A DNA stretch of 64,000 nucleotides from Arthrobacter crusticola (GTDB taxonomy: Bacteria > Actinomycetota > Actinomycetes > Actinomycetales > Micrococcaceae): contig NZ_SMTK01000002.1 in the NCBI RefSeq assembly GCF_004357995.1, forward strand, positions 620,001-684,000, written 5' to 3'. Made by a program: the position numbers and the translations under genes. Each line of letters begins with the position of its first letter. The stretch's first letter is position 1. Below are positions 768 to 29,504 of this stretch, piece after piece. Under the pieces are notes generated by a model, which made no database searches, was not told the DNA's origin, and saw only the letters and a list, made by a program, of their open reading frames with translations.

Positions 768-3134
<2,367 letters not shown>

Positions 3135-3145
3135 CCGTCGAGTGC

Positions 3146-3188
3146 GCAGCAAACCACGCTTCGGCTCCGTAAAAGCGTGGTTTGCTGC
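3146..3188. terminator. 16-bp inverted repeat between convergent ligA and GH3 gene
   Basis: Perfect 16-bp arms (3146-3161 and 3173-3188, GCAGCAAACCACGCTT and its complement) around an 11-base loop. It sits between the stop codons of two convergent genes and is richer in A+T than its surroundings. There is no strong T-tract on either side. A bidirectional terminator is the simplest reading. Confidence 0.65.
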
Positions 3189-3242
3189 AGTTTCGGCGGT
3201 TTCCCGGGGGCATGGGGGCGTCCCGAGGGGCGGACGCCGCCC

Positions 3243-12117: not shown

Positions 12118-12140
12118 CGCTCCGTCCCCCTGCCCCACGC

Positions 12141-12180
12141 CTGCCCGCCGACAGCACCCTGTCGGCGGGCAGTCGGTTTT
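12141..12180 (+). terminator. rho-independent terminator of gatCAB
   Basis: Perfect 14-bp arms (12141-12154 and 12159-12172, CTGCCCGCCGACAG and complement) with a CACC loop, followed by TCGGTTTT. It lies 24 bases after the gatB stop. Confidence 0.88.
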
Positions 12181-12331
12181 CCCGGGCAGGGGCGGGTCCG
12201 GCCCGCCCGCCTCGGGTGCCGTTCACCACTGATAATCTTGCGGTGGCTGTCACAACAGCCACCCGAGTTGCACCAGCTCGCCGCCGGCGGATCCAGCCGG
12301 CAGTGCGGGATTGGCGCGGAAGGAAGATGGA

Positions 12332-13375
12332 GTGAAGGCGCTTTACAAGTCCGGTGCGCATCCCGGATTCGAACTGGTCGACCGTCCCGAGCCGACGGTG
12401 GGCCTTGGAGAAGTAAAGATCCGGGTCATGACCACCGGGATCTGCGGAACCGATCTCCACATCGAGTCCTGGGACTCCTGGGCGCAGGGCATGATCAACG
12501 CCCCCCTGATCCCCGGCCACGAGTTCTACGGCGAGGTGGTCGAACTCGGCGGCGGCGTCCGCGACGTGAAGATCGGCGACCGGGTCTCCGGCGAGGGCCA
12601 CGTCGTCTGCGGCATCTGCCGGAACTGCCGCGCCGGGCGGCGCCAGATGTGCATCCGCACCTCGAGCGTCGGCGTCCAGCGCGACGGAGCCTTCGCCGAA
12701 TACGTCGTCCTTCCCGAGACCAACGTCTGGGTGCACCACGACGAGATCACCCCGGAGCTCGGCGCCGTCTTCGACCCGTTCGGCAACGCCGTCCACACCG
12801 CCCTGAGTTTTCCGCTGGTCGGGGAGGACGTCCTCATCACCGGCGCCGGACCCATCGGCCTGATGGCGGTCGCGGTGGCCCGCCACGCCGGTGCCCGGAA
12901 GATCGCGGTCACCGACATCGCCGCGCCCCGGCTTGAACTCGCCCGGGCCGTCGGGGCCGACATCGCCATCGATGTCAGCCGCATGCGCATCCTGGAGGCG
13001 CAGCAGGAGCTGGGCATGAAGGAGGGCTTCGACATCGGCATGGAGATGTCCGGCCACCCCTCGGCCCTGCCCGAGATGATCGACAACATGACCCATGGAG
13101 GGCGCATCGCCATGCTCGGCCTGCCGTCGTCGTCGATCTCCATCGACTGGGGCAAGGTGGTCACCCACATGCTCACCCTCAAGGGAATCTACGGGCGCGA
13201 GATGTTCGAGACCTGGTACGCCATGAGCGCCATGCTTCAGTCAAACCCGGCCCTGCGCGACGCCGTCGCGAGCGTCGTCACGGACACGCTGCCGGCCTCC
13301 GAATGGCAGGCCGGTTTCGACACCGCCCGCCGCGGGGCCAGCGGCAAGGTGGTCCTGGACTGGACCTCCCTCTGA
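12332..13375 (+). CDS. tdh: L-threonine 3-dehydrogenase
   Basis: Zinc-dependent NAD+ medium-chain dehydrogenase that oxidises L-threonine to 2-amino-3-ketobutyrate. Visible: catalytic-zinc Cys in GICGTDLH, the [12 protein letters not shown] block, a structural-zinc loop with Cys pairs (CGICRNC...MC), [11 protein letters not shown], and the Rossmann motif [11 protein letters not shown]. The GTG at 12332 is chosen, with AAGGAAG 5 bases upstream, giving 347 residues (E. coli Tdh is 341). Followed by kbl, its partner enzyme. Confidence 0.95.
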
Positions 13376-13471
13376 CCTCCCACTGACCTCCGGCGCCTCC
13401 CGGTCCTCCGCAGTCTCTCCTACCTCCAGCCGATTCACCTCCAGCCGTCCCATCCTCCAAGGAGCAGCGAC

Positions 13472-14671
13472 ATGTACACCTCCATCCGCGACCAGCTCAC
13501 CGGCGAGCTTGAGGAGATCCGCAGCGCCGGGCTGTTCAAGCACGAGCGCACCATCTCCTCGCCTCAGTCAAGCCACATCCGGGCCGGGCTGCGCACCGGA
13601 GGGTCAGCCGAGGTCCTGAACTTCTGCGCCAACAACTACCTGGGCCTCGCGGACCACCCGCAGATCATCGAGGCCGCGAAGAACGCCCTGGACGAGCGCG
13701 GCTTCGGCATGGCCTCGGTGCGCTTCATCTGCGGCACCCAGGACCTCCACCTGGAGCTGGAGCGGCGGGTCTCGCAGTTCCTCGGAACCGACGACACCAT
13801 CCTCTTCTCCTCCTGCTTCGACGCCAACGGGGGAGTGTTCGAATCCCTGCTCTCGGCGGAGGACGCCGTCATCTCCGATGCGCTGAACCACGCCTCGATC
13901 ATCGACGGCATCCGCCTGAGCAAGGCCCAGCGCTTCCGGTACGCCAACCGGGACATGGCCGACCTCGAGGCAAAGCTCAAGGAGGCCTCCTCGGCGCGGC
14001 GCCGCCTGATCGTGACCGACGGGATCTTCTCGATGGACGGTTACCTCGCCCCGCTCGAGGCCATCTGCGACCTCGCCGATCAGTACGACGCGATGGTCAT
14101 GGTCGATGACTCGCACGCCGTCGGCTTCATGGGCCCGACCGGTGCCGGGACCCCCGAACACGCCGGCGTCGGGCACCGCGTCGACATCTACACCGGAACG
14201 TTCGGCAAGGCCCTGGGCGGTGCGTCCGGTGGCTATGTCGCCGCCCGCCGCGAGATCGTCGAGGTGCTCCGCCAGCGCGCCCGGCCGTACCTGTTCTCGA
14301 ACTCGCTGGCGCCCTCGATCGTCGCCGCGACCCTGACCGCCCTGGACCTGGTCCAGAACAGCGCCGAGCTGCGCGCCACCCTCGTCGAGAACGCGGCCCA
14401 TTTCCGCCGCCGGATGACCGAGGAGGGCTTCGAGCTGCTCGAGGGAGAGCATGCGATCATCCCGGTCATGTTCGGCGACGCGGTCCTGGCGGCGAAGACC
14501 GCCGACGCCATGCTGGCCCACGGGGTCTTCGTCACCGCGTTCAGCTACCCGGTGGTGCCCAAGGGCGCCGCGCGCATCCGCGTCCAGCTCTCCGCCGCGC
14601 ACAGCAGCGAGGACATCGAGGCCTGCGTCCGGGCGTTCGTCGCAGCCCGGTCCGAGGCCGCAGCCGGGTAG
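13472..14671 (+). CDS. kbl: glycine C-acetyltransferase (2-amino-3-ketobutyrate CoA ligase)
   Basis: PLP enzyme of the alpha-oxoamine synthase family that cleaves 2-amino-3-ketobutyrate with CoA to glycine and acetyl-CoA, completing the Tdh route. Visible: [14 protein letters not shown], the substrate-contact [18 protein letters not shown], and the PLP lysine Lys246 in [13 protein letters not shown]. Length 399 matches E. coli Kbl (398). Ribosome-binding site AAGGAG lies 8 bases before the ATG. The 96-base gap after tdh contains no hairpin, so the two are probably one operon. Confidence 0.96.
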
Positions 14672-16529: not shown

Positions 16530-17738
16530 GTGCACACAACCGCAATAACGCTGATTGAACTCGGCGCTGTCCTGCTGTGCCTTGGCGCCCTCGGCCGCCT
16601 CGCCGCACGCTTCGGACTGTCGCCGATCCCGCTGTACCTGGTCGGTGGGCTCTTCTTCGGCCAGGGCGGATTCCTCGCCCTCGAGGGCCTCGAACGCTTC
16701 AGCGAGGTGGCCAGCGAGATCGGGGTCGTCCTCCTGCTGCTGATGCTCGGCCTTGAGTATTCCGCCAAGGAACTCGTCACCGGTATGCGGCAGTCCTGGA
16801 TGGCAGGCGTGCTCGATATCGTCCTGAACGCCGTCCCCGGGGCAGCCGTCGCGCTCCTGCTGGGGTGGGGTCCCGTCGGCGCCCTGGTGATGGCCGGGGT
16901 CACCTATATCTCCTCGTCCGGCATCGCCGCGAAGGTGATCTCCGACCTCGGACGCCTTGGCAACCGGGAAACCCCGACGGTGCTGGCGATCCTCGTGTTC
17001 GAGGATCTCGCCATGGCCATCTACCTGCCGGTGCTGACGGCGGTGCTCGCCGGGCTCAGCTTCGCCGGAGGCCTCCAGGCCGTGGGTATCTCCCTCGTCG
17101 TGGTGACCCTCGTCCTGGTCGTCGCCCTGCGCTGGGGCAATGTGGTATCGGCAATCGTGGACAGCAAGGACCGCGAGGTGTTCCTGCTGACACTCATCGG
17201 GGCCGCGCTGCTGGTCGCCGGGCTCGCCTCGACCCTGCAGGTCTCGGCCGCCGTGGGCGCCTTCCTGCTGGGCATCGCTATCTCCGGCGCGACGGCGGAA
17301 AACGCCTCCCGCGTGCTCGAGCCGCTGCGCGACCTTTTCGCCGCGATCTTCTTCGTGGTCTTCGGCCTGAACACCGATCCGGCGTCCATCCCGCCGGTCC
17401 TGGGCTGGGCCGTGGTGCTGGCGCTGGTCACGGCGGCCACCAAGATCGCCACCGGCTGGTGGGCCGCGGCCCGCCAGGGGATTAAGCCGCGCGGCCGGGC
17501 GCGGGCCGGGGCCGCGCTGGTAGCCCGCGGCGAGTTCTCTATCGTCATCGCCGGGCTTGCCGTAGCCTCGGGGGCCGTGGTCCCGGAGATCGCGGCGCTG
17601 GCGACGACGTACGTGCTGATCATGGCGATCCTCGGACCGATCCTGGCCCGGATCGCCGAACCCGTGATGGACCTGCTGATGCGCCGCCCCCGCGCCGGGG
17701 GGACGGTGCGGGGGGTCGACACGAGGGCCGGCGGCTGA
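16530..17738 (+). CDS. K+/H+ antiporter membrane subunit (CPA2 family, KhtU-like)
   Basis: Integral membrane monovalent cation:proton antiporter, probably exporting K+ (or Na+) under alkaline or osmotic stress. The 402 residues hold 12 or so membrane segments. Diagnostic: LGLSPIPLYLVGGLFFGQGG-like first half, LLLLMLGLEYS, GVTYISSSGIAAKVISDLG, LVFEDLAMAIYLP and AALVARGEFSIVIAGLAV (the polar residues line the ion path of CPA2 proteins). No soluble RCK domain is fused, in keeping with the separate KhtT-like subunit. GTG start, no clear ribosome-binding site because of coupling to the upstream gene. Confidence 0.88.
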   Translation: MHTTAITLIELGAVLLCLGALGRLAARFGLSPIPLYLVGGLFFGQGGFLALEGLERFSEVASEIGVVLLLLMLGLEYSAKELVTGMRQSWMAGVLDIVLNAVPGAAVALLLGWGPVGALVMAGVTYISSSGIAAKVISDLGRLGNRETPTVLAILVFEDLAMAIYLPVLTAVLAGLSFAGGLQAVGISLVVVTLVLVVALRWGNVVSAIVDSKDREVFLLTLIGAALLVAGLASTLQVSAAVGAFLLGIAISGATAENASRVLEPLRDLFAAIFFVVFGLNTDPASIPPVLGWAVVLALVTAATKIATGWWAAARQGIKPRGRARAGAALVARGEFSIVIAGLAVASGAVVPEIAALATTYVLIMAILGPILARIAEPVMDLLMRRPRAGGTVRGVDTRAGG

Positions 17739-17756
17739 CCGGCTGTCCCGGTCAGC
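17734..17756 (+). terminator. hairpin at the antiporter stop codon
   Basis: 9-bp arms (17734-17742 and 17748-17756, GCTGACCGG and complement) overlapping the TGA stop. No T-tract follows, so termination strength is uncertain. Confidence 0.5.
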
Positions 17757-18301
17757 GGGGCGTAGCCCGGGCCGCCCGCAAGCCGGCAACCGTGAGCGGG
17801 TGGGACAAGATTTTCTGGTCAACCCCGGAGGACGACGCTACATTGATCCCACGGTGAATCGCCCGCCGAGCAGCAGGGCGAACCAGCGTAGGTCTCATGC
17901 TGCCGGTGCTGTTCGTGGTCTCCACTGCTTCGCTTGGTTTCCACTGCATCGCCGGTCCATGGCAGGCCGACGCTGCCCGGAGGGATACCCCTCCGCCGGC
18001 CTCGACAGTGCAGGCAGTCTGCCGGAACAAGCCCCGGTGGATTATGCGCCTCGACCCGGCGAGCACCCCGGGACCGACCATCGACGCCATGGAGTGTTCC
18101 GCGACGCGCCCTGAGAGTACGCGCTATCACCGTTCCCGATCGCGCATCGGCTCCTGAACCGGGATGGACCAGGACGGCCACCGCCTCGCCCTGATTCAAA
18201 CAGCAGACCGTCGGCACACTCCCGCTGCGGTCCCCGCAACCGGTGAGGAACTGTCTGGACGGAGACCGCGGGATGGGCAGCGATAGACCGAAGGAAGACC
18301 A
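17757..18301 (+). promoter_or_regulatory. long gene-free leader before the diaminobutyrate aminotransferase
   Basis: About 545 bases without a convincing gene. Short open frames on both strands show no recognisable motif and no ribosome-binding site. Features seen: a possible promoter TGGTCA(17 bases)TACATT with the -10 at 17839-17844, and an imperfect tandem duplication (17912-17928 and 17929-17947) in which both copies end in TCCACTGC. The unusual length suggests an upstream control region for the biosynthetic island; no known riboswitch was recognised. Confidence 0.45.
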
Positions 18302-19558
18302 GTGACGGATATTTTTGAAACCCTTGAATCCGAAGTCCGCAGCTACTGCCGCACCTGGGACACCGTCTTCGATCACGCCGAAGGCAGCCTGCTGTACGGC
18401 GAGGACGGCAAGGAGTACGTTGACTTTTTCTCCGGTGCCGGGGCACTGAACTACGGACACAACAATCCCCTGCTGCTCCAGCCACTCATCGAATACCTTC
18501 AGTCGGGCGCCGTTGTCCATTCACTCGACATGAAAACGCCTGCGAAGCGCAGGTTCCTCGAAGCCTTCAACGAAGTCGTCCTGACGCCCCGGTCACTGGA
18601 CTACAAAGTGATGTTTCCCGGCCCGACAGGGACGAACACCGTGGAGTCGGCGCTGAAGCTCGCGCGGAAGGTTACGGGACGGCACCACATCCTCGGCTTC
18701 ACCAATGCATTTCACGGCATGACCCTCGGCTCCCTGTCCGTCACGGGCAACTCCATGAAACGGCGGGGAGCGGGAATCCCCCTGACGAACACTTCGAGTA
18801 TTCCCTATGACGGATATCTGGAAGGCAGCGGCGGGGACTTCCAGTGGCTCAGCCGGACCCTGGAGGACAGCGGCTCCGGCGTCGATCTGCCGGCGGCGGT
18901 CATCGTGGAGACGGTGCAGGGCGAAGGCGGGCTGAGGGCGGCAAGGGCAGCGTGGCTCAGGGGACTCGCCGAGATCTGCAGCCTGCACGGTGTCCTCCTC
19001 ATCGTGGACGATGTGCAGGCCGGGTGCGGGCGCACCGGGACCTTCTTCAGTTTCGAAGAGGCGGGCATCGTCCCGGACATCGTCTGCCTGTCGAAGTCGA
19101 TCTCCGGTTTCGGACTGCCGATGGCCCTGACACTGTTCAAACCGGAGCTGGACATCTGGAAGCCGGGAGAACACAACGGCACCTTCCGCGGCCACAATCC
19201 CGCCTTCGTGACCGGGGCGGCGGCCCTTCGCCACTTCTGGGCGGATTCCGATTTCCAGCTCCAGATCGGCGAACGCTCGGTGCAGCTGCACGGGGGGCTT
19301 GAGGAGATTGCGCTGCGCACCGAGGGTGCCCACGTGCGCGGACGGGGCATGATCGCAGGCATCTACTACCCGGACCCGGAAACGGCGGGAAAGATCGCAT
19401 CCGAGAGCTTTGCCCGGGGCCTGCTCGTCGAGACTTCCGGGCCCAAAGGGGAGGTGCTCAAGGCCCTTCCCGCACTCACCATCGATCCGGATGCGCTTCG
19501 CCGGGGCCTCGCGATCCTCGCCGATGCCGCGGAGGCTGTCACCGGATCCATCGCCTAG
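18302..19558 (+). CDS. diaminobutyrate--2-oxoglutarate aminotransferase (EctB type)
   Basis: Class-III PLP aminotransferase that converts L-aspartate-4-semialdehyde plus glutamate to L-2,4-diaminobutyrate. The 418 residues match EctB throughout: [20 protein letters not shown], the [15 protein letters not shown] block, [42 protein letters not shown], the PLP lysine Lys265 in [11 protein letters not shown], and [22 protein letters not shown] start with AAGGAAG 4 bases before it. Neither ectA (acetyltransferase) nor ectC (ectoine synthase) is in the window, and the neighbours are NRPS genes, so the product probably feeds peptide-polymer synthesis rather than ectoine. Confidence 0.93.
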
Positions 19559-19627
19559 GCGGTCCCGGAACCGGCTGCCCGGCCAGCCGACGGGGAGCCG
19601 TCAGCACCGGTGGAGCCGGTCCAACCG

Positions 19628-19672
19628 GCTGGTACGCCCGGCCCGGGTGCCGCCCGGGCCGGGCGTACCAGC
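19628..19672. terminator. 20-bp perfect stem-loop between convergent genes
   Basis: Perfect 20-bp arms (19628-19647 and 19653-19672) around a 5-base loop TGCCG, between the convergent aminotransferase and M28 peptidase genes. It is nearly all G+C with no T-tract, typical of bidirectional terminators in high-GC actinobacteria. Confidence 0.75.
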
Positions 19673-19745
19673 GGAGACCTCCCCGGTGGAGAGTCTGGGG
19701 GCGGAGCAGGAGGAGCGGAAATCGGGTCGTCGGGCGCGTCCTGTC

Positions 19746-20756
19746 CTATTCCGGTGGCGGTGCCACCGCGAACGCCCGGGCCGCAAAAACCAAGGCGGCG
19801 GTCATCTCACGCAGCATCGTTGGATCGACGTTGTCGAGGGTGTCGCAGCCCTGGTGGTAGCAGGGGTCGTACTCCCTCCCGGCCGTTCCGCCGTGGAGCC
19901 GGACCTCGGCGTCGGACTTGATGCCGGAATCGCCGGTGAACAACCCGCCGACAGCGATCCCGGCGTCCTGGAAGGCCTCGTAGTCCGACCCTCCGTCCAG
20001 CGAGGTCGGCTCAGCGGCCAGGTCGTTCTGCGCGAAATAGTCGAGGAAGACCTCCTCGATGACGTCCGAGCCTTTCGGGCCGCCACGGTCGGAGTCCGAG
20101 CCGTCGCCGTCATGGACGAAACGGACACCGTTCGGGGATCCGACCATGTCGAGGTTGAGGTAGACGGCGGTGCTGTCGACCTGCTCCCCGGTCAGTTCGG
20201 AGACGTAGTGGTTGGAACCGTAAAAGCCGTCCTCCTCACCGCCCCAGAACGCGAAACGCACCCGGTTGGACGGTTCGATGCCGCTCTCCGCCAGCCACTC
20301 GGCCGTCTCGAGGATGGCGGCCACCCCGGTGGCGTTGTCGTTGATTCCCGCGCCCTCGGCGACAGAGTCGAGATGACCGCCCACCACAACGGTCTGCGCG
20401 TCGCTCCCCGGGCTGTCCGCGACGATGTTGAAGGATTGGACCTCCTCGTCGTTCCAGTCATTCCAATAACTGAAGCGCTGGCGGACGGGTTCATAGCCGG
20501 CCTCGCGCAGCTGCTCCTCGACGTAGCGGGCGGACTCCTCGTAGCCGGAGGTGCCCGAGGCGCGGGTTCCGCCCTCCGCATCGGCGACGGACTGCAGCGC
20601 CTGGACATGGGCAAGGACACCGCGTTCCGTGACAGCGTCCCGAATCGCCTCGGCGTCGGTGGCGGAGGTTGGTACCAGCGGCGGCGGGGACGAACACGAG
20701 GTCAGCGCCGCCAGTGCCAGACCGGCGGCAAGTGCCGGTCCTGCTCGGAATTTCAT
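19746..20756 (-). CDS. M28-family zinc aminopeptidase, lipoprotein
   Basis: Surface-anchored metallopeptidase. MKFRAGPALAAGLALAALTS plus Cys21 is a lipoprotein signal with lipobox LTSC, so the enzyme sits outside the membrane. The two-zinc ligands of family M28 are all visible: His128 (GGHLDS), Asp140 (INDNATG), Glu174/Glu175 (FWGGEEDG), Asp203 (LNLDMVG) and His301 (CYHQGCD). The ATG at 20756 is preceded by GGAGGAAC; longer frames are antisense to the transferase gene. It is convergent to the aminotransferase and divergent from the phosphopantetheinyl transferase, inside the biosynthetic island. Inference: it may trim or degrade the cationic polymer, the role zinc peptidases play in poly-lysine producers; an unrelated peptidase role is possible. 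Confidence 0.9.
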   Translation of the reverse strand: MKFRAGPALAAGLALAALTSCSSPPPLVPTSATDAEAIRDAVTERGVLAHVQALQSVADAEGGTRASGTSGYEESARYVEEQLREAGYEPVRQRFSYWNDWNDEEVQSFNIVADSPGSDAQTVVVGGHLDSVAEGAGINDNATGVAAILETAEWLAESGIEPSNRVRFAFWGGEEDGFYGSNHYVSELTGEQVDSTAVYLNLDMVGSPNGVRFVHDGDGSDSDRGGPKGSDVIEEVFLDYFAQNDLAAEPTSLDGGSDYEAFQDAGIAVGGLFTGDSGIKSDAEVRLHGGTAGREYDPCYHQGCDTLDNVDPTMLREMTAALVFAARAFAVAPPPE

Positions 20757-20868
20757 CCAGTTCCTCCTCCAACCCAGCCGGTCGCCCCTCGATGCTGGAG
20801 AGCAATCGGGAATGCCAGACCTGCCCAGCATTCGTAGCATAGGCTGGTTTGGATGTCCCCATCTATGT

Positions 20869-20910
20869 GAAAGACCGGTGTCCCCGGCTCCCGGCGGGCA
20901 CCGGTCTTTC
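20869..20910 (+). promoter_or_regulatory. 12-bp inverted repeat in leader of PPTase gene
   Basis: Arms GAAAGACCGGTG (20869-20880) and CACCGGTCTTTC (20899-20910) are separated by 18 bases. The right arm ends 21 bases before the PPTase ATG. It could be a regulator site in the divergent promoter region or an RNA stem in the leader; the sequence does not decide. Confidence 0.5.
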
Positions 20911-20931
20911 CCTGCCGGTTCCGGAGGCTGA

Positions 20932-21660
20932 ATGGACAACGCAGCTGGAGCAGTCTTCGACGGTGTCTTTCTCACGGCCCGGCGTCTTTCGGAGGTGGAC
21001 CCCGCGCTTGCCGTCCTGCTCGACGACGCGGAGCTGCGCAGGGCCGCCGCCTTCCGCGCGCCGGCTCCGCGCCAGCGGTTCCTGGCCGGACGCATCCTGC
21101 TCAGACAGCACGCCTCCCGGCTGGCGCAGGTCCCGCCCGAGCGGCTGCGGGCGGACTACCGTTGCTCCGCCTGCTCCCTGGCCGATGGCGTCCACGGCCA
21201 ACCCCGGTACACCCTGCCCGCATCCGCTTCCGCCCCCGCGCTCCGAATGAGCCTCAGCAGGTCCGGAGACTGGTGCCTGACCGCCGGAAGCGCCGATATG
21301 CGCCTCTCCGGTCTCGGCGTCGACATCGAAGCCGGACCGCTGCCGGCCCCCGACGGCTTCGAGGAGGTGGCGCTGGCACCGGGGGAGCGGAGGCTGCTCC
21401 GCCGGATGACGGGAGCACAGCGCACCACCGCGACGACAAGAATCTGGGTGCGCAAGGAGGCGGTACTGAAGGCGCTGGGCATCGGCATGGACCTGGATCC
21501 ATCGCTCGTGGACGCCTCCGCCTCCGTTCCCCTGGTACCCGGCGGGGATTGGAGGAACGGGCAGTGGCATACCCGGGATATTACCCCGGGCGCGGTCGGC
21601 CTGCCCCGCGAATTTACCGCGGCATTGGCGGTATTCCGAGGATCACAGCTCTCTACCTAG
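20932..21660 (+). CDS. Sfp-type 4'-phosphopantetheinyl transferase
   Basis: Attaches the 4'-phosphopantetheine arm of CoA to carrier-protein serines. The family magnesium/CoA motifs are present: GVDIE (Asp131, Glu133) and WVRKEAVLKALG (Trp172, Lys175, Glu176), plus an RFLAGRILLRQ segment near residue 50. Length 242 fits Sfp/EntD-like enzymes. The ATG is preceded by GGAGG at a 5-base spacing. The obvious client is Ser600 of the NRPS two genes downstream. Confidence 0.92.
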   Translation: MDNAAGAVFDGVFLTARRLSEVDPALAVLLDDAELRRAAAFRAPAPRQRFLAGRILLRQHASRLAQVPPERLRADYRCSACSLADGVHGQPRYTLPASASAPALRMSLSRSGDWCLTAGSADMRLSGLGVDIEAGPLPAPDGFEEVALAPGERRLLRRMTGAQRTTATTRIWVRKEAVLKALGIGMDLDPSLVDASASVPLVPGGDWRNGQWHTRDITPGAVGLPREFTAALAVFRGSQLST

Positions 21661-21677
21661 GTCAAGACGGGGCGCCG

Positions 21678-21696
21678 CCTAAGGTTTTCCTAAGGT
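21678..21696 (+). promoter_or_regulatory. direct repeat CCTAAGGT x2 with 11-bp period (candidate SARP site)
   Basis: CCTAAGGT at 21678-21685 and again at 21689-21696, separated by TTT. SARP-family activators bind heptamer direct repeats spaced one helical turn (11 bp), normally about 8 bp upstream of the -10. Here CACAGT (21705-21710) starts 8 bases after the second copy; TATCCT (21730-21735) is another possible -10. The site lies in the 107-base gap between the PPTase and aspartokinase genes. Confidence 0.55.
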
Positions 21697-21767
21697 ACCT
21701 GGAACACAGTCGTGGATGAGAAGAGCCCCTATCCTGCATCCGTCCCTGCTCGACTGAAGAGGCTGCC

Positions 21768-23237
21768 TTGAATGATGTTTTGCGTGATGCCGGTGCGCCC
21801 ACCGGCCATGGAGGATCCCCTGAAACATCCGGGCGTCCGGAACCCGGAGCCACCGACGATGAGGCGCCCGGCCAAACTCAGAGCCGCGCCGATCCGGCCG
21901 GAAGCCTCATCGTGCAGAAATACGGTGGCTCCTCGGTGGCGGATGCCGCCGGCATCCTCCGCGCGGCCCGCCGCATCGCCGAAACCCGGGCCGCGGGAAA
22001 CCGCGTTGTCGCAGTGGTTTCGGCGATGGGCGACACAACCGATGACCTGCTCGACCTTGCCGATGCGATCTCCACCCGGCCGCATCCCCGGAGCCTCGAC
22101 GCCCTGATCGCCACCGGTGAGCTTGTGTCGATCGCCGCCCTGGCGCTCGCCCTGACGGATCTCGGGGAGGACGTCACCACGTTCACGGGCAGCGAGGCAG
22201 GGCTCATCACCGACAACCTGCACGGCAGGGCGCGCATCCTCGATGTCCGGCCCGGCCGGATCACCACCTGCCTGGAGCGGGGAGGGATCGCCGTTGTCGC
22301 CGGATTCCAGGGCCGGACCGGGCGGAAGAAGTCATTGACGACGCTCGGACGCGGCGGGTCCGATCTCACCGCGGTCGCGCTTGCCGCCGCGCTTGGCGCA
22401 AGCATCTGCGAGATCTACACCGATGTTGACGGCGTTTACACCGCCGACCCGAGGGTTGTCCCGACCGCCCGCAAGATCGACGTGATTTCCAGCGAGGAGA
22501 TGCTGGAGTTCGCCGCATCGGGCGCGAAGATCCTGCATCTGAGGTGTGTCGAGTATGCCCGCCGGTTCGGTGTCCCGATCCATGTACGCTCCTCGTTCGC
22601 ACAGCACAGGGGGACCCTGATCCTGCCGAGCTTCGACCGGCAGCCCGGGGAGCCGGCAAGGGAACAGCCGGTGATCTCCGAGGTCATCGGTGTGAACTCC
22701 AGTGCCCGGATCACAGTGTTCGGGGTGTCCGAGGGCAGCGACACCACGGCGCGGATCGTGCACGACCTCACGGGGTCGGGCCTGAACCTGGAGATGATCA
22801 TCAAAAGTTCACGGTCCGCCGGCTCCGGGCGCACCGACATTTCCTTCACCATTCCCGCCGCCGAGGCCTCCACCGCCATGAAGGCGCTTGAGTCGGCCCG
22901 GACGGACATCACGTTCCAAGGAATCGATATCAACGAGCACGTGGGGAGGGTATCGGTCGTGGGACTGGGCATGCGGTCCTCACCCCACGTCTTCTCGACG
23001 TTCTTCCGGGCACTCTCCGATGCAGGCATCCACATGGAACTTGTCGAGATCTCCGAGATCTGCATAGCGGCAGTCACCCGGGCCGGCCAGCTTGACGCCG
23101 CCGTCGGGGCCGTTCGCCGGGCTTTCGGCCTGGCCCGTGTCGCCAAGGACGTTTCCGTCGAGGCACCCCCGGGGATACAGATCCAAGCCGCTCCGGAAAA
23201 CGGCGCGCTCGATGAAACCCGGACGCCGACCGCCTGA
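21768..23237 (+). CDS. aspartate kinase of the biosynthetic island
   Basis: Phosphorylates L-aspartate, the first step toward aspartate semialdehyde, the substrate of the nearby EctB-type enzyme. Residues 1-45 are a poorly conserved extension; the kinase domain starts at SLIVQKYGGSSVADA (Lys51) and includes VVSAMGDTTDDLLDLA, TLGRGGSDLTAVALAAALGA and YTDVDGVYTADPR. Two ACT domains follow (VFGVSEGSDTTARIVHDLTG; VSVVGLGMRSSPHVFSTFFR). Start is TTG at 21768 with AAGAGG before it; no ATG is better placed. There is no asd gene next to it, unlike the usual lysC-asd operon, so it is probably a pathway-dedicated second isozyme. In the first ACT domain the segment reads GRTDISF where actinobacterial LysC usually has GTTDITF. 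Confidence 0.93.
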   Translation: MNDVLRDAGAPTGHGGSPETSGRPEPGATDDEAPGQTQSRADPAGSLIVQKYGGSSVADAAGILRAARRIAETRAAGNRVVAVVSAMGDTTDDLLDLADAISTRPHPRSLDALIATGELVSIAALALALTDLGEDVTTFTGSEAGLITDNLHGRARILDVRPGRITTCLERGGIAVVAGFQGRTGRKKSLTTLGRGGSDLTAVALAAALGASICEIYTDVDGVYTADPRVVPTARKIDVISSEEMLEFAASGAKILHLRCVEYARRFGVPIHVRSSFAQHRGTLILPSFDRQPGEPAREQPVISEVIGVNSSARITVFGVSEGSDTTARIVHDLTGSGLNLEMIIKSSRSAGSGRTDISFTIPAAEASTAMKALESARTDITFQGIDINEHVGRVSVVGLGMRSSPHVFSTFFRALSDAGIHMELVEISEICIAAVTRAGQLDAAVGAVRRAFGLARVAKDVSVEAPPGIQIQAAPENGALDETRTPTA

Positions 23238-23300
23238 GCCGGCGCCACAGCACCGGGACAAACGGGGGATGGCCCACCGGGGTCGTCCCCAAGGAAGAGA

Positions 23301-26300
23301 TTGGAGACCTGGATGGGGCGACATGTAGCCGACCCGGTGACCACCGGCAGGGCGTTCGCCCGCCCGCACCGCCCGAAGGGGCGCGTCATGGATGACGTGC
23401 ATGCCCGGACGCTTACCCGTCCGGAACAGGGCGTCCGCTGGGCGCCGGGAGAGCGCTTGAACCATCTGTTCGAGGACCGGTGCGACCGGCTTCGCAGGGA
23501 GGGCAAAAGCGGCCAGCTCGCGGTCGACGCCGACGATGTCGCCCTGACCTACGACGAGCTGGACGGGCGGGCCAACCAGCTCGCCCGCCACCTGCTGTCG
23601 CATGGTGCGCGCTCTGGTGACCGGATCGCACTGCTCTTCGACCTGCCCTGGCGCTCATATGTCGGAATGCTCGCGGTGCTGAAAATCGGCGCCGCCTACG
23701 TGCCCCTGGACCCGGGATTCCCTCCTGACCGGCTGAAGTACATCCTCGATGACGCCAACGTGGCGCTGGTGGTTTCACTCGCCCACCTTGGGGAGCTCGT
23801 ACCTGAAGGACGCCGGACCGTGTTCCTCGACGCGGAGCAAGCCCGCATCGACGCCTTGGAGTCCTCACGGCTCGACACCGTCCTGGGGGCGGAGGGGGCC
23901 GGTGAACTGGCCTACATCATCTACACCTCGGGTTCGACCGGCAGGCCGAAGGGGGTGGCGATCGAACACGCCAGCATCTGCAACTTCGTCCGGGTCGCGG
24001 CAGACACCTACGGGGTCGTCCCCACGGACCGCTTCTACCAGGGGATGACGATCGCCTTCGATTTTTCGGTTGAGGAGATCTGGGTGCCGTGGATGGCAGG
24101 GGCGACGCTTGTTCCCAAACCCCGCGGTTCAAGCCTGCTCGGAGCCGACCTCGCCGACTTCCTGCATGCAAAGCACGTGACCGCCATGTGCTGTGTGCCC
24201 ACCCTTCTTGCAACAATCGACGACGACCTGCCCGAGCTGCGGTTCCTCCTCGTCTCGGGGGAGGCATGCCCGCGGGACCTGATTGCCCGCTGGCACCGGC
24301 CGGGCCGGCGGTTCCTCAACGTCTACGGCCCAACCGAAGCGACGGTCACCGCGACATGGGCCGTCGCCGACCCGCACCAGCCGGTCACCCTCGGCGTCCC
24401 CCTGCCCACCTACTCGGCGGTCATCCTCGACCCGCACGAGCCGCGGGAGGTTCCCCGCGGGGAAGTGGGGGAGATCGCCCTGGCCGGAATCGGACTCGCC
24501 AAGGGGTACGTCAACCGGCAGGACCTCACCGACCGAGCCTTCATCCCGGACTTCCTCAACCTCGCCAACAACCCCTCCGGGCGGATCTACCGCACGGGCG
24601 ACCTCGGCCGGTTCACCGAGGAAGGCCAGATCGACTACCTCGGCCGGATCGACACCCAGGTCAAGATCCGCGGGTACCGCATCGAGCTGACGGAGATCGA
24701 ATCCGTGCTGCTGCAAGTCTCCGGAATCGCGCAGGCCGTCGTCACCACCTACGAGTCCAGCCCCGGAAACACGGAACTGGCCGCCTACTACAGCCTCCGC
24801 CGGGACACCGAGGCGGTGGACAAATCGATGATCCTTGAGGTGCTGCGGGAGAGGCTGCCGGGGTACATGGTGCCCGCCTACCTCGACCGGCTCGACGTCA
24901 TCCCCATGCTCACCAGCGGCAAGGCCGACCGCAAGAGCCTGCCCGCACCCGTCAACAAGCTCAGTGCCGTCAGCAACGGCACCTACACCGCGCCGGTCAC
25001 CGCGGCAGAGGAAATCCTCGCCGACGTCCTGGCCGAAGTGCTCCAGGTCGAGAAGGTATCGACAACCGACCACTTCTTCAACGATCTCGGTGCGAATTCG
25101 CTGTTGCTTGCCCATTTCTCCGCCCGCCTGCGCAAGGACGGGAGAGTTCCCCCGGTCCCGATGCGGGAGATCTACCTGAAGCCGACGATCATGGACCTTG
25201 CCGCCTCCCTGGGCGCACCGACGGGAGCCACGGCCGCCCACCTGGTACAACCCGACAGTCCGGCGCCGGCGCCGGCAAGCACAGCATCGTATGTGCTGTG
25301 TGGCGTCCTCCAGGCCCTGTTCTTCCTGGGCTCGACCTTCGCCGCCTCCTTTCTGTTGCTCGCGGGCTTCCGGTACGCCTCGGGGGCCGACACCCTCGGT
25401 GAGGTCCTCCTGCGTTCCTTCCTGTTCGGGACGGTGACCTTTCTGGCTTTCTGCCTGCTGCCGATCGCCGCTAAATGGCTGCTCATTGGCCGGTGGAAGG
25501 TGCAGGAGATCCCGGTATGGACGCTCGGCTACGTTCGGTTTTGGCTGGTCAAGGTGCTCATCCGGAACAGTCCCCTCAGGATGTTCGTGGGCACGCCCGT
25601 GTACGCGCTGTACCTGCGCGCGCTCGGCGCGAAAGTGGGCCGCAACGTGGCGATCTTCGCTTCGGCCGTTCCCGTCTGCACCGACCTCATCACCATCGGG
25701 GACGGAACAGTCATCCGGAAGGACGCGGCGTTCAGCGGCTACCGTGCCCACCGGGGCCGGATCCAGACCGGGGCGGTCACCATTGGGGCGGACGTGGTGA
25801 TCGGCGAGGCGGCCATCCTCGACATCGGCTCATCGATCGGCGACGGCTCACAGCTCGGACACGGCTCGTCGCTCTATGCGTCGCAGTCGATCCCCCCGAA
25901 CGAGCGGTGGCACGGATCCCCGGCGCAGCCCACCACCACCGACTACCGGGCCGTGGCCCCGGCGGACTGCAGCCCCCGCCGGCGCATCACCTATGGCACC
26001 TTTGCGGTAATCAACCGCGTCTTCCTGGTCGCGCCGCTCGGCCTGGCCGCCCTCTCGACGTTCATCCCGGTGTACATGTCCAGTGACAAGCGGGACCACG
26101 CCGACCTGATGTTCTACGTGGAGGCCCTGGCTGTCTCCTTCATCATCTTCTTCGGGGCCGTGGTGACCGGCCTGCTCCTCCTTGCGACCGTGCCGCGCCT
26201 GCTGAACCTGTTCCTCACGCCGGGGAAGGTGTACCCGCTCTACAGCCTGCCGTACATGCTCCAGCAGGCCATTGCCGGCATGACGAACCTGCGGTTCTAC

Positions 26301-27473
26301 ATGGAACTGACCGGGGACAGCTCGCTCATCGTCCACTACCTGCGGTTGCTGGGCTACAAGCAGCCGGGCCTGGTCCAGACGGGCTCGAACTTCGGTGTGG
26401 CGCTCAAGCATGAAAGCCCCTTCGCGGCGACCATCGGCAGCGGCACCATGGTCGCAGACGGCCTCTCGATCATGAACGCGGACTTCTCCAACAGCTCCTT
26501 CAAGGTCTCGCCCACCTCGATCGGCTCCCGCAGCTTCTTCGGCAACAATATCGTCTACCCCTCCGCGGGGCGGACCGGGGACAACTGCCTCCTCGCCACG
26601 AAGGTCATGGTGCCCGTCGACGGCCCCGTGAGGGAAGGGGTGGGCCTGCTCGGCTCTCCGGCCTTCGAAATCCCGCGCTCGGTGCGGCGGGACAGCGAGT
26701 TCAAGGCGATCCGGCCTGAGGAGCTGAAGACGCAGCTGCGCGCCAAGAACAACCACAACGGGCTCACCATCTGGTTCTTCCTGATCAGCCGGTGGATCTA
26801 CACCTTCGTGGCCCTCGTCATCGCCTCCTTCGGTGTCGCCCTCCACACGATCTTCGATGTTCTGGCCGTCGCGGCGTGCTTCACCGCGCTGCTGCTGTTC
26901 ACCACTTTCTATTTCATCCTCATCGAGCGGGCCTCCCTCGGATTCCGAAGGCTGAACCCGCTGTTCTGCTCGATCTATGACCGCCGCTTCTGGCGGCATG
27001 AGCGTTTCTGGAAGCTCAGCGGAACGACCTACCTCGAATTCTTCAACGGAACCCCGTTCAAGAACCTGGTGTGGCGGATGCTGGGGGTCCGGGTCGGCCG
27101 GAGGGTGTTCGACGACGGCTGCTCGATCCCGGAGAAGACGATCGTCTCGATCGGCGACGACTGCACCCTTAACGCCCTGAGCACCATCCAGTGCCACTCG
27201 ATGGAGGATGGCGCGTTCAAGGTCGAAGGCATCACCATCGGGGCGGGCTGCACCGTGGGCGTCAACGGCTTCATCCACTACGGCGTCACCATGGGCGACG
27301 GCGCCGTGCTTGAGCCCGACTCGTTCCTCATGAAAGGCGAGGACCTTCCCGCAGGCAGCCGCTTCGGCGGCAACCCGGCACAGGAACTCACGCGTTCCGC
27401 CGTCGGCCTTCCCTCAGCGGCGAAAACCCGAACGCACCCCCTTGAGGAGGGGAATATCCCTTACCTCGGCTGA
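23301..27473 (+). CDS. membrane NRPS of the poly-lysine synthetase (Pls) type
   Basis: Single-module NRPS of up to 1390 residues with the architecture of epsilon-poly-L-lysine synthetase. Adenylation domain about 40-560 (A3 YTSGSTGRPKG near 207-217, A4 FDFSVEEIW, A5 NVYGPTEAT, A8 GRIDTQVKIRGYRIE, A10 Lys541 in SGKADRKSLP). Thiolation domain with Ser600 in DLGANSLL. Then about six membrane segments interleaved with three left-handed beta-helix domains (roughly 765-880, 1000-1140, 1240-1370; hexapeptide repeats such as VTIGADVVIGEAAILDIG). No HHxxxDG condensation domain and no thioesterase. A hand-read specificity code is D-F-E-T-L-S-V-V-T-K; Glu at the third position is also found in lysine codes. 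With the EctB-type gene nearby, the likely monomer is L-2,4-diaminobutyrate. Starts are ambiguous: TTG 23301 (after AAGGAAG), ATG 23313 (after GGAG) or ATG 23388 (after AAGGGG). Confidence 0.92.
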   Translation: METWMGRHVADPVTTGRAFARPHRPKGRVMDDVHARTLTRPEQGVRWAPGERLNHLFEDRCDRLRREGKSGQLAVDADDVALTYDELDGRANQLARHLLSHGARSGDRIALLFDLPWRSYVGMLAVLKIGAAYVPLDPGFPPDRLKYILDDANVALVVSLAHLGELVPEGRRTVFLDAEQARIDALESSRLDTVLGAEGAGELAYIIYTSGSTGRPKGVAIEHASICNFVRVAADTYGVVPTDRFYQGMTIAFDFSVEEIWVPWMAGATLVPKPRGSSLLGADLADFLHAKHVTAMCCVPTLLATIDDDLPELRFLLVSGEACPRDLIARWHRPGRRFLNVYGPTEATVTATWAVADPHQPVTLGVPLPTYSAVILDPHEPREVPRGEVGEIALAGIGLAKGYVNRQDLTDRAFIPDFLNLANNPSGRIYRTGDLGRFTEEGQIDYLGRIDTQVKIRGYRIELTEIESVLLQVSGIAQAVVTTYESSPGNTELAAYYSLRRDTEAVDKSMILEVLRERLPGYMVPAYLDRLDVIPMLTSGKADRKSLPAPVNKLSAVSNGTYTAPVTAAEEILADVLAEVLQVEKVSTTDHFFNDLGANSLLLAHFSARLRKDGRVPPVPMREIYLKPTIMDLAASLGAPTGATAAHLVQPDSPAPAPASTASYVLCGVLQALFFLGSTFAASFLLLAGFRYASGADTLGEVLLRSFLFGTVTFLAFCLLPIAAKWLLIGRWKVQEIPVWTLGYVRFWLVKVLIRNSPLRMFVGTPVYALYLRALGAKVGRNVAIFASAVPVCTDLITIGDGTVIRKDAAFSGYRAHRGRIQTGAVTIGADVVIGEAAILDIGSSIGDGSQLGHGSSLYASQSIPPNERWHGSPAQPTTTDYRAVAPADCSPRRRITYGTFAVINRVFLVAPLGLAALSTFIPVYMSSDKRDHADLMFYVEALAVSFIIFFGAVVTGLLLLATVPRLLNLFLTPGKVYPLYSLPYMLQQAIAGMTNLRFYMELTGDSSLIVHYLRLLGYKQPGLVQTGSNFGVALKHESPFAATIGSGTMVADGLSIMNADFSNSSFKVSPTSIGSRSFFGNNIVYPSAGRTGDNCLLATKVMVPVDGPVREGVGLLGSPAFEIPRSVRRDSEFKAIRPEELKTQLRAKNNHNGLTIWFFLISRWIYTFVALVIASFGVALHTIFDVLAVAACFTALLLFTTFYFILIERASLGFRRLNPLFCSIYDRRFWRHERFWKLSGTTYLEFFNGTPFKNLVWRMLGVRVGRRVFDDGCSIPEKTIVSIGDDCTLNALSTIQCHSMEDGAFKVEGITIGAGCTVGVNGFIHYGVTMGDGAVLEPDSFLMKGEDLPAGSRFGGNPAQELTRSAVGLPSAAKTRTHPLEEGNIPYLG

Positions 27474-27526
27474 ATGCGAACGCTCCACCCTGCGCCCGAC
27501 AAGATGTTCGGGTACTCGTCTCTGAT

Positions 27527-27553
27527 GGTAAGACACCTGTCTTCCTTGTTACC
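27527..27553 (+). promoter_or_regulatory. nested inverted repeats upstream of SARP gene
   Basis: GGTAA (27527-27531) pairs with TTACC (27549-27553) and within it AAGACA (27530-27535), CC, TGTCTT (27538-27543) forms a perfect palindrome. The element lies about 125 bases before the regulator start in a 203-base gene-free gap. It is a candidate operator; no clear promoter hexamers could be assigned. Confidence 0.4.
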
Positions 27554-27676
27554 CCACAGAACGAGTATTCGGGCTTCTTGACCCACGCGCCCGGACGGTG
27601 CCACGGTTGCTGCAGGTTGAGCAGTTGGGCGCTGAGTAGGGTTTCGGCCTGGCACCTCGGACGATGGTGAGAAGAG

Positions 27677-28645
27677 ATGTCCCTGGACAAGTTGAAGAAC
27701 CACTCGGAACCGGAGGCGGAGTTCCCCCGGTCGATTTCCGTGAACCTGATCGGAGACTTCTCGGTCACGCGGGGAGACGGCACCGTGCTCCGCGCGGGGG
27801 ACCTGGGCGGACTCAAGACACGGCAGATCTTCGAGTTGCTCCTGCTGCGGCTGGGCTCCCCCATATCGAAGGACCGGCTGATCGAGGTGCTGTGGGGCGG
27901 CCGCGCCCCCAACGGTGCCGTTGCGACACTCGAAAGTTACGTCAGTATGCTGCGCAGGATCATCCAGCCGGGGCATGCGCGCACCGGGCCGCTGCGGACC
28001 GCCACCGGCGGATACCTGCTCGACGCGAAACTGGTCGACCTTGACTACGCGCGCTTCCAGCACCTCGTCCGCTCCGCCGAACGATGCCAGCCTGCCGATG
28101 CGCTTCCGCGCCTGCTGACGGCACTCGAGCTGTGCACCCGACCCCTGCTGGGGCATGAGCTGACCGCGGAATGGGCGGAGGAGGCCCGGCTGGGCCACGC
28201 CGCCGCCGCACAGGAGGTGCGCCTCAAGGCGGCCGAAACCGCATCGCTGCTGGGCCGGACAACGGAATCAATCCGTCTCGCGCAGGAGGCCCTCTCGGCC
28301 GACCAGCTCAGCGAACGGGCCTGGATCTCCATGATCCTCGGCCTGGAACACGCTGGAATGGCGGCCGAGGGCCTTTCGGCGTTTGAGCGCTGCCGGAGGG
28401 TTTTCGCCACCCACCTCGGGTGTGAGCCGGGCCCGGTACTCAAGGGCGCCCACCGGCGGCTGCTCCACCAGACGGCTGAGGCCGACCCCGACCTGTCCGA
28501 GGAGGTCGCTGCGCTGCTCTATCTGGGCGGACGCCTCAACGGGACCGGCGGTTCCCGGAGCCTCGACAGCGGGCGCGAATGGACCAGCGAGATCGCCGGC
28601 CGGATCCTCCACAACTTCATCCAGCGGGCACACGAGGCGAGCTGA
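27677..28645 (+). CDS. SARP-family transcriptional activator (OmpR-type DNA-binding plus BTAD)
   Basis: 322-residue regulator of the Streptomyces antibiotic regulatory protein family. Residues about 18-110 form a winged helix (SVNLIGDFSVTRGDGTVLRA, LLLRLGSPISKDRLIEVLWG, TLESYVSMLRRII) and about 115-265 the bacterial transcriptional activation domain (DYARFQHLVRSAERC, SIRLAQEALSADQLSERAWI, FATHLGCEPGPVLKGAHRRLL). No NB-ARC ATPase follows, so it is a small SARP. These proteins bind 11-bp-spaced direct repeats and activate clustered biosynthetic genes. It follows the NRPS by 203 bases on the same strand and is the natural pathway-specific activator. SARPs are much commoner in streptomycetes than in Micrococcales, a hint that the island was acquired. 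Confidence 0.92.
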   Translation: MSLDKLKNHSEPEAEFPRSISVNLIGDFSVTRGDGTVLRAGDLGGLKTRQIFELLLLRLGSPISKDRLIEVLWGGRAPNGAVATLESYVSMLRRIIQPGHARTGPLRTATGGYLLDAKLVDLDYARFQHLVRSAERCQPADALPRLLTALELCTRPLLGHELTAEWAEEARLGHAAAAQEVRLKAAETASLLGRTTESIRLAQEALSADQLSERAWISMILGLEHAGMAAEGLSAFERCRRVFATHLGCEPGPVLKGAHRRLLHQTAEADPDLSEEVAALLYLGGRLNGTGGSRSLDSGREWTSEIAGRILHNFIQRAHEAS

Positions 28646-28673
28646 GCACCGGGCCGGGCGGACGCGGAGCCCC

Positions 28674-29504
28674 TCAGTCGAGAATCTTGCCGATCGGTTC
28701 GCGCTTCTCGGCCTGGAACCGGTCCTCGGCCCGGCCGTACGCCCAGTAGCCCGAGAGGGAGACCTGGGTACGTTCGAGCCCGCGCTGGCCGAACAGGACA
28801 TCGCGCAGCGCCTTCATGGCCCCCCGCTCGCCGTGGACGAACGCCTCGGCCCGACCCTCGGGCCACTGGGCGGCGGCGACGGCGTCCGCGAGCAGCGACG
28901 TCGTCCCGGCCGGACGGCCACGACGGAACAGCCAGCGGAGTTCGACGCCGGCGGGGGCCTGAAGCGGGAGGATGTCCTCCTCGTCGTCCACCTCAAGCCA
29001 GGCGATGCCGGTGGCGGCCTCCGGGAGCGCCTCAAGGCCTGCGGCGATGGCGGGAAGAGCCGCCTCGTCGCCGGCGAAGAGGTACCAGTCGGCGTCGCGC
29101 TTCGGCGTCCACGCTCCGGACGGGCCCATCAGCACGAGCGGGTCGCCGGGCCGGGCGCGGGCAGCCCACGGGCCGGCGATCCCCTCGTCGCCGTGGACCA
29201 CGAAGTCGATGGCGAGCAGCTGCCGCTCCCGGTCCATCCACCGCACCGTATAGGTCCGCTTGATGGGCAGGTCCCCGGGAGGGAGCTGCTCCGCGAGGGT
29301 CTCGAGGTCGTAGGGGGGAACGAGCCCGAGTTCCGGGCGTGCGAAGAGCAGCTTGACGTACCGGTCGGTGGAATCGTTCTCGAGGAGCTTGGGAAAGGCC
29401 TCTCCGCCGGCGATGACGCGGACCATGTGCGGGCCGAGCCGGATCGTCTCGAGGACACTGAGCACCACCTGGGGACGGGGCTTTCGAATGGCGGGTGCGC
29501 TCAT
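28674..29504 (-). CDS. siderophore-interacting protein (FAD ferric reductase)
   Basis: Cytoplasmic flavin reductase of the SIP family that reduces imported ferric siderophores to release iron. N-terminal FAD-binding domain with KRTYTVRWMD (RxYTxR/S motif) and DFVVHGDEGIAGPWAARARPG, C-terminal NAD(P)H-binding domain with DWYLFAGDEAALPAIAAGLE and SGYWAYGRAEDRF. The ATG at 29504 (276 residues) is chosen over an upstream in-frame start that would run through the iron-box sequence. It is convergent to the SARP gene with a 28-base gap and is not part of that island. Confidence 0.92.
   Translation of the reverse strand: MSAPAIRKPRPQVVLSVLETIRLGPHMVRVIAGGEAFPKLLENDSTDRYVKLLFARPELGLVPPYDLETLAEQLPPGDLPIKRTYTVRWMDRERQLLAIDFVVHGDEGIAGPWAARARPGDPLVLMGPSGAWTPKRDADWYLFAGDEAALPAIAAGLEALPEAATGIAWLEVDDEEDILPLQAPAGVELRWLFRRGRPAGTTSLLADAVAAAQWPEGRAEAFVHGERGAMKALRDVLFGQRGLERTQVSLSGYWAYGRAEDRFQAEKREPIGKILD

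Follow-up and report, generated by a model that had tools for sequence, protein, structure and literature searches.

A candidate pathway for poly-2,4-diaminobutyric acid in a probably acquired gene block of Arthrobacter crusticola

Membrane-bound synthetases of the Pls/PosA family, poly-2,4-diaminobutyric acid (poly-Dab) of both hands and the dat/ask gene context of its synthetases are already known. Published poly-Dab synthetases include some that are partnered by dat and ask (PMC8117764, PMC8225329). Pls homologs of the lysine type have been published from cheese/skin Arthrobacter, Micrococcus and other Micrococcales (PMC8117764). The cheese-skin survey of that paper reports no match for either of the two poly-Dab synthetases or for the poly-Dap (poly-2,3-diaminopropionate) synthetase at 40% identity and 80% coverage, so that the Dab type is less documented in this bacterial family than the lysine type. 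For genomes of Pseudarthrobacter and Arthrobacter, antiSMASH calls of NAPAA regions have been published (PMC12025171). Among the literature matches listed, no title or abstract dealt with Arthrobacter poly-Dab or with an EctB-type poly-Dab cluster. Here, we describe a block of six genes from Arthrobacter crusticola (GCF_004357995.1; 3.67 Mb in 15 contigs). It lies in a stretch of 64,000 nucleotides, positions 620,001 to 684,000 of contig NZ_SMTK01000002.1, which is called the window throughout. The histidine ammonia-lyase encoded in this genome is 95% identical, across 86% of its length, to that of an uncultured Arthrobacter, in line with a host that is Arthrobacter sensu lato. From sequence comparison, we predict with considerable confidence that the block encodes a pathway for gamma-linked poly-Dab, most likely the L polymer, and that it was probably acquired horizontally.

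A preliminary description of this DNA had named six genes. All of them were found by profile and frame searches at 17.7-28.6 kb of the window, and each was matched by a profile. The novelty suggested in this description is mostly not supported, in part because dat and ask partners of poly-Dab synthetases are already published. The features, in window coordinates, are:

17688..28672, no strand: probably acquired block (island), with its edges placed where the alignment to three block-free relatives stops
18302..19558, plus strand: EctB-type diaminobutyrate--2-oxoglutarate aminotransferase, Dab supply (TIGR02407, 629.2 bits, cut-off 552.2)
19746..20756, minus strand: M28 zinc peptidase, a predicted lipoprotein of 336 amino acids (PF04389, 155 bits)
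20932..21660, plus strand: Sfp-type 4'-phosphopantetheinyl transferase (PPTase; PF01648, 44.5 bits)
21678..21696, plus strand: candidate SARP box CCTAAGGT-TTT-CCTAAGGT, a direct repeat spaced at 11 bp that precedes the aspartokinase and synthetase genes
21768..23237, plus strand: second, pathway-linked aspartokinase with an altered ACT domain (AA_kinase, 166.5 bits; ACT_9)
23388..27473, plus strand: Pls/PosA-family synthetase of 1361 amino acids with A and T domains and three units of a transmembrane pair and a C domain (TIGR02353)
27677..28645, plus strand: SARP-family regulator (BTAD PF03704, 52.1 bits; Trans_reg_C PF00486, 29.7 bits)

The synthetase matches TIGR02353 from position 2 to 695 of 695 with 711.8 bits (cut-off 423.1). 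Its A and T domains are followed by a full NRPS_term_dom, and six transmembrane segments surround three tandem C domains, as is typical of the Pls/PosA family. The hydrophobic segments, six in all, come in three pairs that span residues 640-691, 871-932 and 1128-1179 (Kyte-Doolittle). The start at 23388 is that of the database copy (P0001); the longest frame opens at 23301, which is an alternative start. Since the protein does not deviate at any of 98 terminal-domain columns (those with a conservation of 97% or more among 80 other rows), it looks intact.

The EctB-type protein has diaminobutyrate transaminases as its best solved-structure matches (e.g., 6rl5), and its gene is the only one in the genome that exceeds the TIGR00709 cut-off. 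The block thus holds both a synthetase-linked Dab aminotransferase and a synthetase-linked aspartokinase, the combination expected for poly-Dab. One other aspartokinase in the genome is over the cut-off, the housekeeping copy at C4:351943 (432.7 bits). One Asd was found, encoded elsewhere in the genome (TIGR01745, 580 bits).

The two aspartokinases differ in the first ACT domain, where the housekeeping enzyme reads MIVQN and the island copy MIIKS (QN to KS). The QN motif, which we take to be part of the inhibitor site of aspartokinase, is kept in all 30 housekeeping copies compared (those with the highest scores among 37 genomes with a match). Of 28 cluster-linked copies, 9 have it (partial copies below 150 bits, from L017 and L020, excluded). 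The copy from the window is among the 19 without QN. For cluster aspartokinases, the median identity to their own housekeeping enzyme is 60% (kinase part) and 33% (first ACT part). The corresponding values for housekeeping aspartokinases are 92% and 87%, but these controls all belong to one genus, and their relatedness inflates the contrast. The lack of QN in the island copy suggests relaxed feedback control and hence a desensitized supply.

The following pathway is proposed. The island aspartokinase, probably relaxed in its feedback control, would phosphorylate aspartate, and the Asd encoded elsewhere would lead to aspartate semialdehyde, which EctB would transaminate to L-Dab. The synthetase, bound to the membrane, would have its carrier domain armed by the PPTase. 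Its A domain would activate Dab, and, judging from characterized members of the Pls family, the three C domains with their transmembrane pairs would polymerize it. It may be guessed that the synthetase itself exports the polymer. The M28 lipoprotein probably acts on the polymer outside the membrane, trimming or destroying it, and so protects the producer. SARP probably switches on the aspartokinase-synthetase unit from the direct-repeat site.

The gene context of related synthetases was surveyed in fetched stretches of 78 named loci. Many of these are cut short where their contig stops, which leads to an undercount of linkage. Neighbors were counted by phmmer of stop-to-stop frames; a gene caller based on GC3 (GC content at third codon positions) had missed several lower-GC genes. 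An EctB-type gene (more than 400 bits) is present in 14 of the 78 loci and a Dat-like gene (174-268 bits) in 26. NCBIfam, applied to 10 of these 40 loci, agrees: five are above the EctB cut-off and five below. For a tree of 82 synthetase rows, labels were assigned from genes up to 5 kb away from the synthetase, with EctB taking precedence over Dat and Dat over Dap-type; rows with fewer than 600 matched terminal-domain residues were dropped. The labels are Dat for 26 rows, EctB for 16 (including the window and one lysine-like row, L039_2, which bears this label by neighborhood only), Dap-type for 15 and none for 25. An aspartokinase is nearby in 21 of the 26 Dat, 7 of the 16 EctB, none of the 15 Dap-type and one of the 25 unlabeled rows. 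The Dap labels came from the GC3 caller, and a later phmmer check placed one unlabeled row and one Dat row near Dap-type genes as well, neither of them in the clade of the window.

A more careful tree of 76 rows omits one identical row and five distant ones. In it, the window is sister to Arthrobacter sp. H5 (100/98), and two Kocuria rows follow (99/95). Arthrobacter sp. H5 is the nearest named relative, with identities of 77% for EctB, 46% for the PPTase, 62% for the aspartokinase, 70% for the synthetase and 60% for the M28 peptidase. The clade of the window (bootstrap 88, SH-aLRT 95) has 22 rows including the window itself, of which 11 are Dat, 9 EctB and 2 neither. When EctB and Dat are each set against all other labels, 7 and 9 changes, respectively, occur on the 76-row tree. 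Several gains, losses or exchanges of supply genes have thus taken place.

Gene fusions tie the PPTase, the aspartokinase and the Dab aminotransferase to this synthetase family. Among the 120 listed of 7941 homologs, four have a PPTase domain (P0006, P0014, P0018 and P0024) and one has an aspartokinase domain (P0035). Pfam confirms the PPTase fusion in P0006 and the aspartokinase fusion in P0035. In Pseudonocardia (L028, L040 and L045), a single open frame of 2008-2356 codons has synthetase and Dat matches, an apparent fusion; in L040, the one run against Pfam, the class-III aminotransferase is at 1710-2115.

Some relatives of the synthetase differ in build or host. P0017 (Arthrobacter pigmenti, 1828 amino acids) and P0022 (1739 amino acids) are Pls-like with two AMP-binding stretches each. 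The best of these begins near residue 535 and 445, respectively, and the extra one is presumably N-terminal. Outside Actinomycetota, relatives were seen in Halomonas (L052), Sphaerotilus (L053) and a metagenome-assembled genome of Myxococcales (L044). Of these three, only L053 has an EctB-type neighbor.

It is unlikely that the polymer is poly-D-Dab, made as in Streptoalloteichus hindustanus with the help of a racemase and of an A domain selective for the D form. The supply logic is shared with that system (PddC and PddD), but poly-D-Dab requires the DapF-like racemase PddB, which is reported to be translationally coupled to pddA (PMC8225329). With a 332-residue DapF frame as the query, no significant DapF match was obtained in any frame of the window. 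The only PF01678 gene found in the genome (C2:774282) is about 126 kb from the block and presumably encodes the housekeeping DapF. The lack of a DapF match in the window favors the L form, which we consider the most likely one.

About as unlikely is a synthetase that polymerizes Dap, with the Dab genes serving something else. The pocket of the A domain reads D-F-E-C-L-S-V-V-T-K, with positions assigned by what we take to be the GrsA layout. This full code is common to 162 of 190 aligned sequences, and 13 of the remainder have no A domain. The 190 sequences pool the window, the loci and database proteins, some of them counted twice; L031, L039 and L041 are represented by their second frame only. 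Being all but universal among the aligned relatives that have an A domain, the pocket code was rejected as a discriminator between Dab and Dap. The second pocket residue is Phe in poly-Dap and poly-Dab synthetases, Ala in lysine enzymes and Met in PosA (PMC10522769). The Phe-type pocket of the window is thus as expected for poly-Dab, and poly-Dap enzymes have the same type. Moreover, the A domain of the poly-Dap synthetase of S. albulus PD-1 also activates L-Dab, if more weakly, so that specificities overlap (PMC4668381). The product of EctB, however, is Dab. Dap is made in S. albulus PD-1 by homologs of cysteine synthase and ornithine cyclodeaminase (PMC4668381), and 13 of the 15 Dap-labeled rows hold both a PALP and an ornithine-cyclodeaminase gene. 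By phmmer, no homolog of either was found in window frames of at least 80 codons (E 1e-5) or within 5 kb of the synthetase in any of the 21 other clade loci.

Two synthetase-matching genes, paired or split, were seen at L058, L060, L064, L068, L071-L073, L075, L077, L078, L082 and L083 (Streptomyces, Pseudonocardia and Geodermatophilus). These loci adjoin at least one gene for PALP, ornithine cyclodeaminase or a TauD-type dioxygenase. They may make a modified Dap polymer.

Poly-lysine or poly-ornithine is a very improbable product. On grounds of similarity, Pls homologs from Micrococcales have been attributed to poly-lysine (PMC8117764), but the block's enzyme has Phe as its second pocket residue, where lysine enzymes have Ala and the ornithine enzyme Met, and the Dab supply genes are inside the block. 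A lysine-like code (DAESIGTVIK) was found once, in the very distant row L039_2, the second synthetase of L039. At this locus (Arthrobacter sp. VKM Ac-2550), the synthetase with the lysine-like pocket is within 5 kb of a relative of the window synthetase (1094-5203 and 9608-14053). Two proposals of the preliminary description, a cationic homopolymer made by a Pls-type synthetase and Dab rather than lysine as its monomer, are well supported as predictions by the pocket residues, the clade, the neighbors and the gene fusions.

It is barely credible that the EctB-aspartokinase pair is a remnant of ectoine or other osmolyte synthesis beside an unrelated synthetase: the enzyme is of the EctB type, a specialized aspartokinase occurs in 133 ectoine clusters among 510 putative producers (PMC5924519) and one relative has the pair with no synthetase nearby, but EctB- or Dat-type genes are present in the fetched locus of 40 of the 78 named relatives, the Pseudonocardia synthetase carries a fused Dat, and no EctC match was found in the genome by a search that was silent in the control as well.

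Several observations weigh against the proposed poly-Dab pathway and the L form. PddB is reported to have only weak homology to DapF, so that a divergent racemase could escape (PMC8225329). The DapF search was also without a significant match in every fetched relative, and its sensitivity to PddB is unproven. The same silence was met with EctC, for which every control genome gave no match. The shared pocket code separates neither Dap from Dab nor L from D. Two of the 22 clade rows have no linked Dab aminotransferase despite flanks of about 10 kb per side. The PPTase, the M28 peptidase and SARP are not conserved parts of such loci, linked separate homologs being present in few relatives or none. 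According to the preliminary description, homologous islands lacking the EctB and aspartokinase genes would count against its proposal. Such loci were encountered in part: the aminotransferase is missing from the two rows just mentioned, and an aspartokinase is linked in only some. The converse arrangement in G099 (presumably Arthrobacter sp. JZ12) also counts in this direction. Its EctB-aspartokinase pair (C1:1039992; L127) has no synthetase nearby, and the nearest relative of the synthetase (59% identical to that of the window) is about 0.7 Mb away from the pair.

The block is absent from related genomes at the same site, which was fetched in 3 of 37 other searched genomes of the genus (G231 and G309, the nearest by the right flank, and G079). 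In all three, the genes for the antiporter and the siderophore-interacting protein adjoin. Flank identity is 93-95% for G231 and G309 and 70-86% for the more distant G079. By blastn, the flanks align to the fetched loci (L123, L124 and L130) until about 17678-17687 and again from 28673-28677, and 92-163 bp join the flanks in place of the block. On the left, the antiporter gene is unaligned over its final 51 bp (to 17738), so that this edge is uncertain by about as much. The block ends coincide with a stretch that is absent from three relatives, which indicates more than a chance neighborhood. The M28 gene, on the minus strand between the EctB and PPTase genes, shows that the six genes are not one operon. 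GC content is 0.64-0.68 in 2-kb windows at 18-28 kb and 0.68-0.73 at 12-18 kb and 28-34 kb. The difference in GC3 is modest: 0.79-0.87 for the six block genes, 0.90 for the preceding antiporter gene and 0.87 for the two following genes. No flanking repeat was seen by eye at the block ends, and profile searches of the block's genes revealed no integrase among them. A location of the island on plasmids was considered and rejected: none of the plasmid records spans the greater part of the block, and the best match covers 8%. The block was probably acquired horizontally; the observations are most simply read as a gain in this lineage, with loss in the relatives as the alternative. An imperfect 19-bp tandem repeat was seen at 17907-17944, within the 563-bp gap upstream of ectB.

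The M28 protein has a lipobox-like LTSC at its N-terminus, as read from the sequence. Homologs are present in the fetched flanks of 6 of the 78 named loci (L021, L033, L039, L042, L054 and L055), but that of L039 may serve the lysine-like synthetase there. PldII of S. albulus, a zinc aminopeptidase coupled to pls, is thought to be protective, and a peptidase also adjoins a pls-type gene in Corynebacterium variabile (PMC9223678, PMC8117764). From its family and position, we infer that the M28 protein is a polymer hydrolase or self-protection enzyme. Separate PPTase homologs were found in the fetched flanks of 5 of the 78 named loci.

SARP is putatively the activator of the pathway. Its close homologs with an organism name are mostly from Arthrobacter and relatives, and 27 of 38 genomes of the genus encode BTAD domains, in some cases as part of large proteins. 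The statement that a SARP would be unusual for this host was therefore rejected. SARP was also rejected as a conserved part of the island, with no homolog in the fetched flanks of the 78 named loci (phmmer, E 1e-3). In Arthrobacter sp. H5, a BTAD gene is about 35 kb from EctB. The candidate SARP box has no second exact copy in the genome. For an exact 8-mer repeat at a spacing of 11 or 22 in six gaps, the chance is 0.076 (shuffles), so that the box is suggestive only. With up to three mismatches, the pattern matched in 8 of 100 window shuffles; with two mismatches, it had 2 matches in the genome, as did the backward-pattern control.

A mainly streptomycete distribution of the Pls family, as previously suggested, is not borne out: among 295 sampled genomes of the host's family, 162 have a TIGR02353 match above the cut-off. 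It is tempting to speculate, and on balance we favor, that poly-Dab synthetases are modular, with their supply rebuilt repeatedly by swaps between EctB and Dat, loss of the ACT site and fusions, and that a unit with activator, PPTase and peptidase arrived here as one 11-kb block. The block would provide a compact, apparently self-sufficient poly-Dab pathway outside streptomycetes, and the block-free sister genomes offer a natural plus/minus pair for polymer function. The QN pattern of the aspartokinases may be useful for engineering Dab supply. The context rule (Dab aminotransferase versus Dap-forming pair) helps where the A-domain pocket cannot tell products apart.

Five described systems resemble the block in part. 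The aspartokinase Ask_Ect of ectoine clusters is likewise an extra copy paired with EctB, and its feedback residues are not conserved (PMC5924519); in the block, however, the pair is accompanied by a polymer synthetase, and EctC gave no match in the genome or in the controls. The poly-Dap synthetase of S. albulus PD-1 (PMC4668381) has the same family and pocket class, but the Dap-making homologs of cysteine synthase and ornithine cyclodeaminase present there were not found here. The epsilon-poly-lysine system of Streptomyces albulus (Pls and PldII) has the same synthetase architecture and a zinc peptidase nearby (PMC8117764, PMC9223678), whereas the block has Phe rather than Ala in the pocket and includes Dab supply genes. 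PddA-PddD for gamma-poly-D-Dab (PMC8225329) likewise consist of a synthetase, a Dab aminotransferase (PddC) and a pathway-specific aspartokinase (PddD), but also have the racemase PddB, of which no counterpart was found in the window. Finally, pldA for gamma-poly-L-Dab from Streptoalloteichus hindustanus (figure legend in PMC8117764) is likewise of the Pls type, with dat and ask among its context genes in the legend, which also lists pddA. The five Dat-type genes compared, each beside the synthetase of a relative (Actinokineospora, Actinosynnema, Streptomyces, Paeniglutamicibacter and Arthrobacter bambusae), are below the EctB cut-off. The aminotransferase of the block, by contrast, exceeds it, and PPTase, M28 peptidase and SARP are inside the block. 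To what is already known of these systems, the block adds an unusually complete member.

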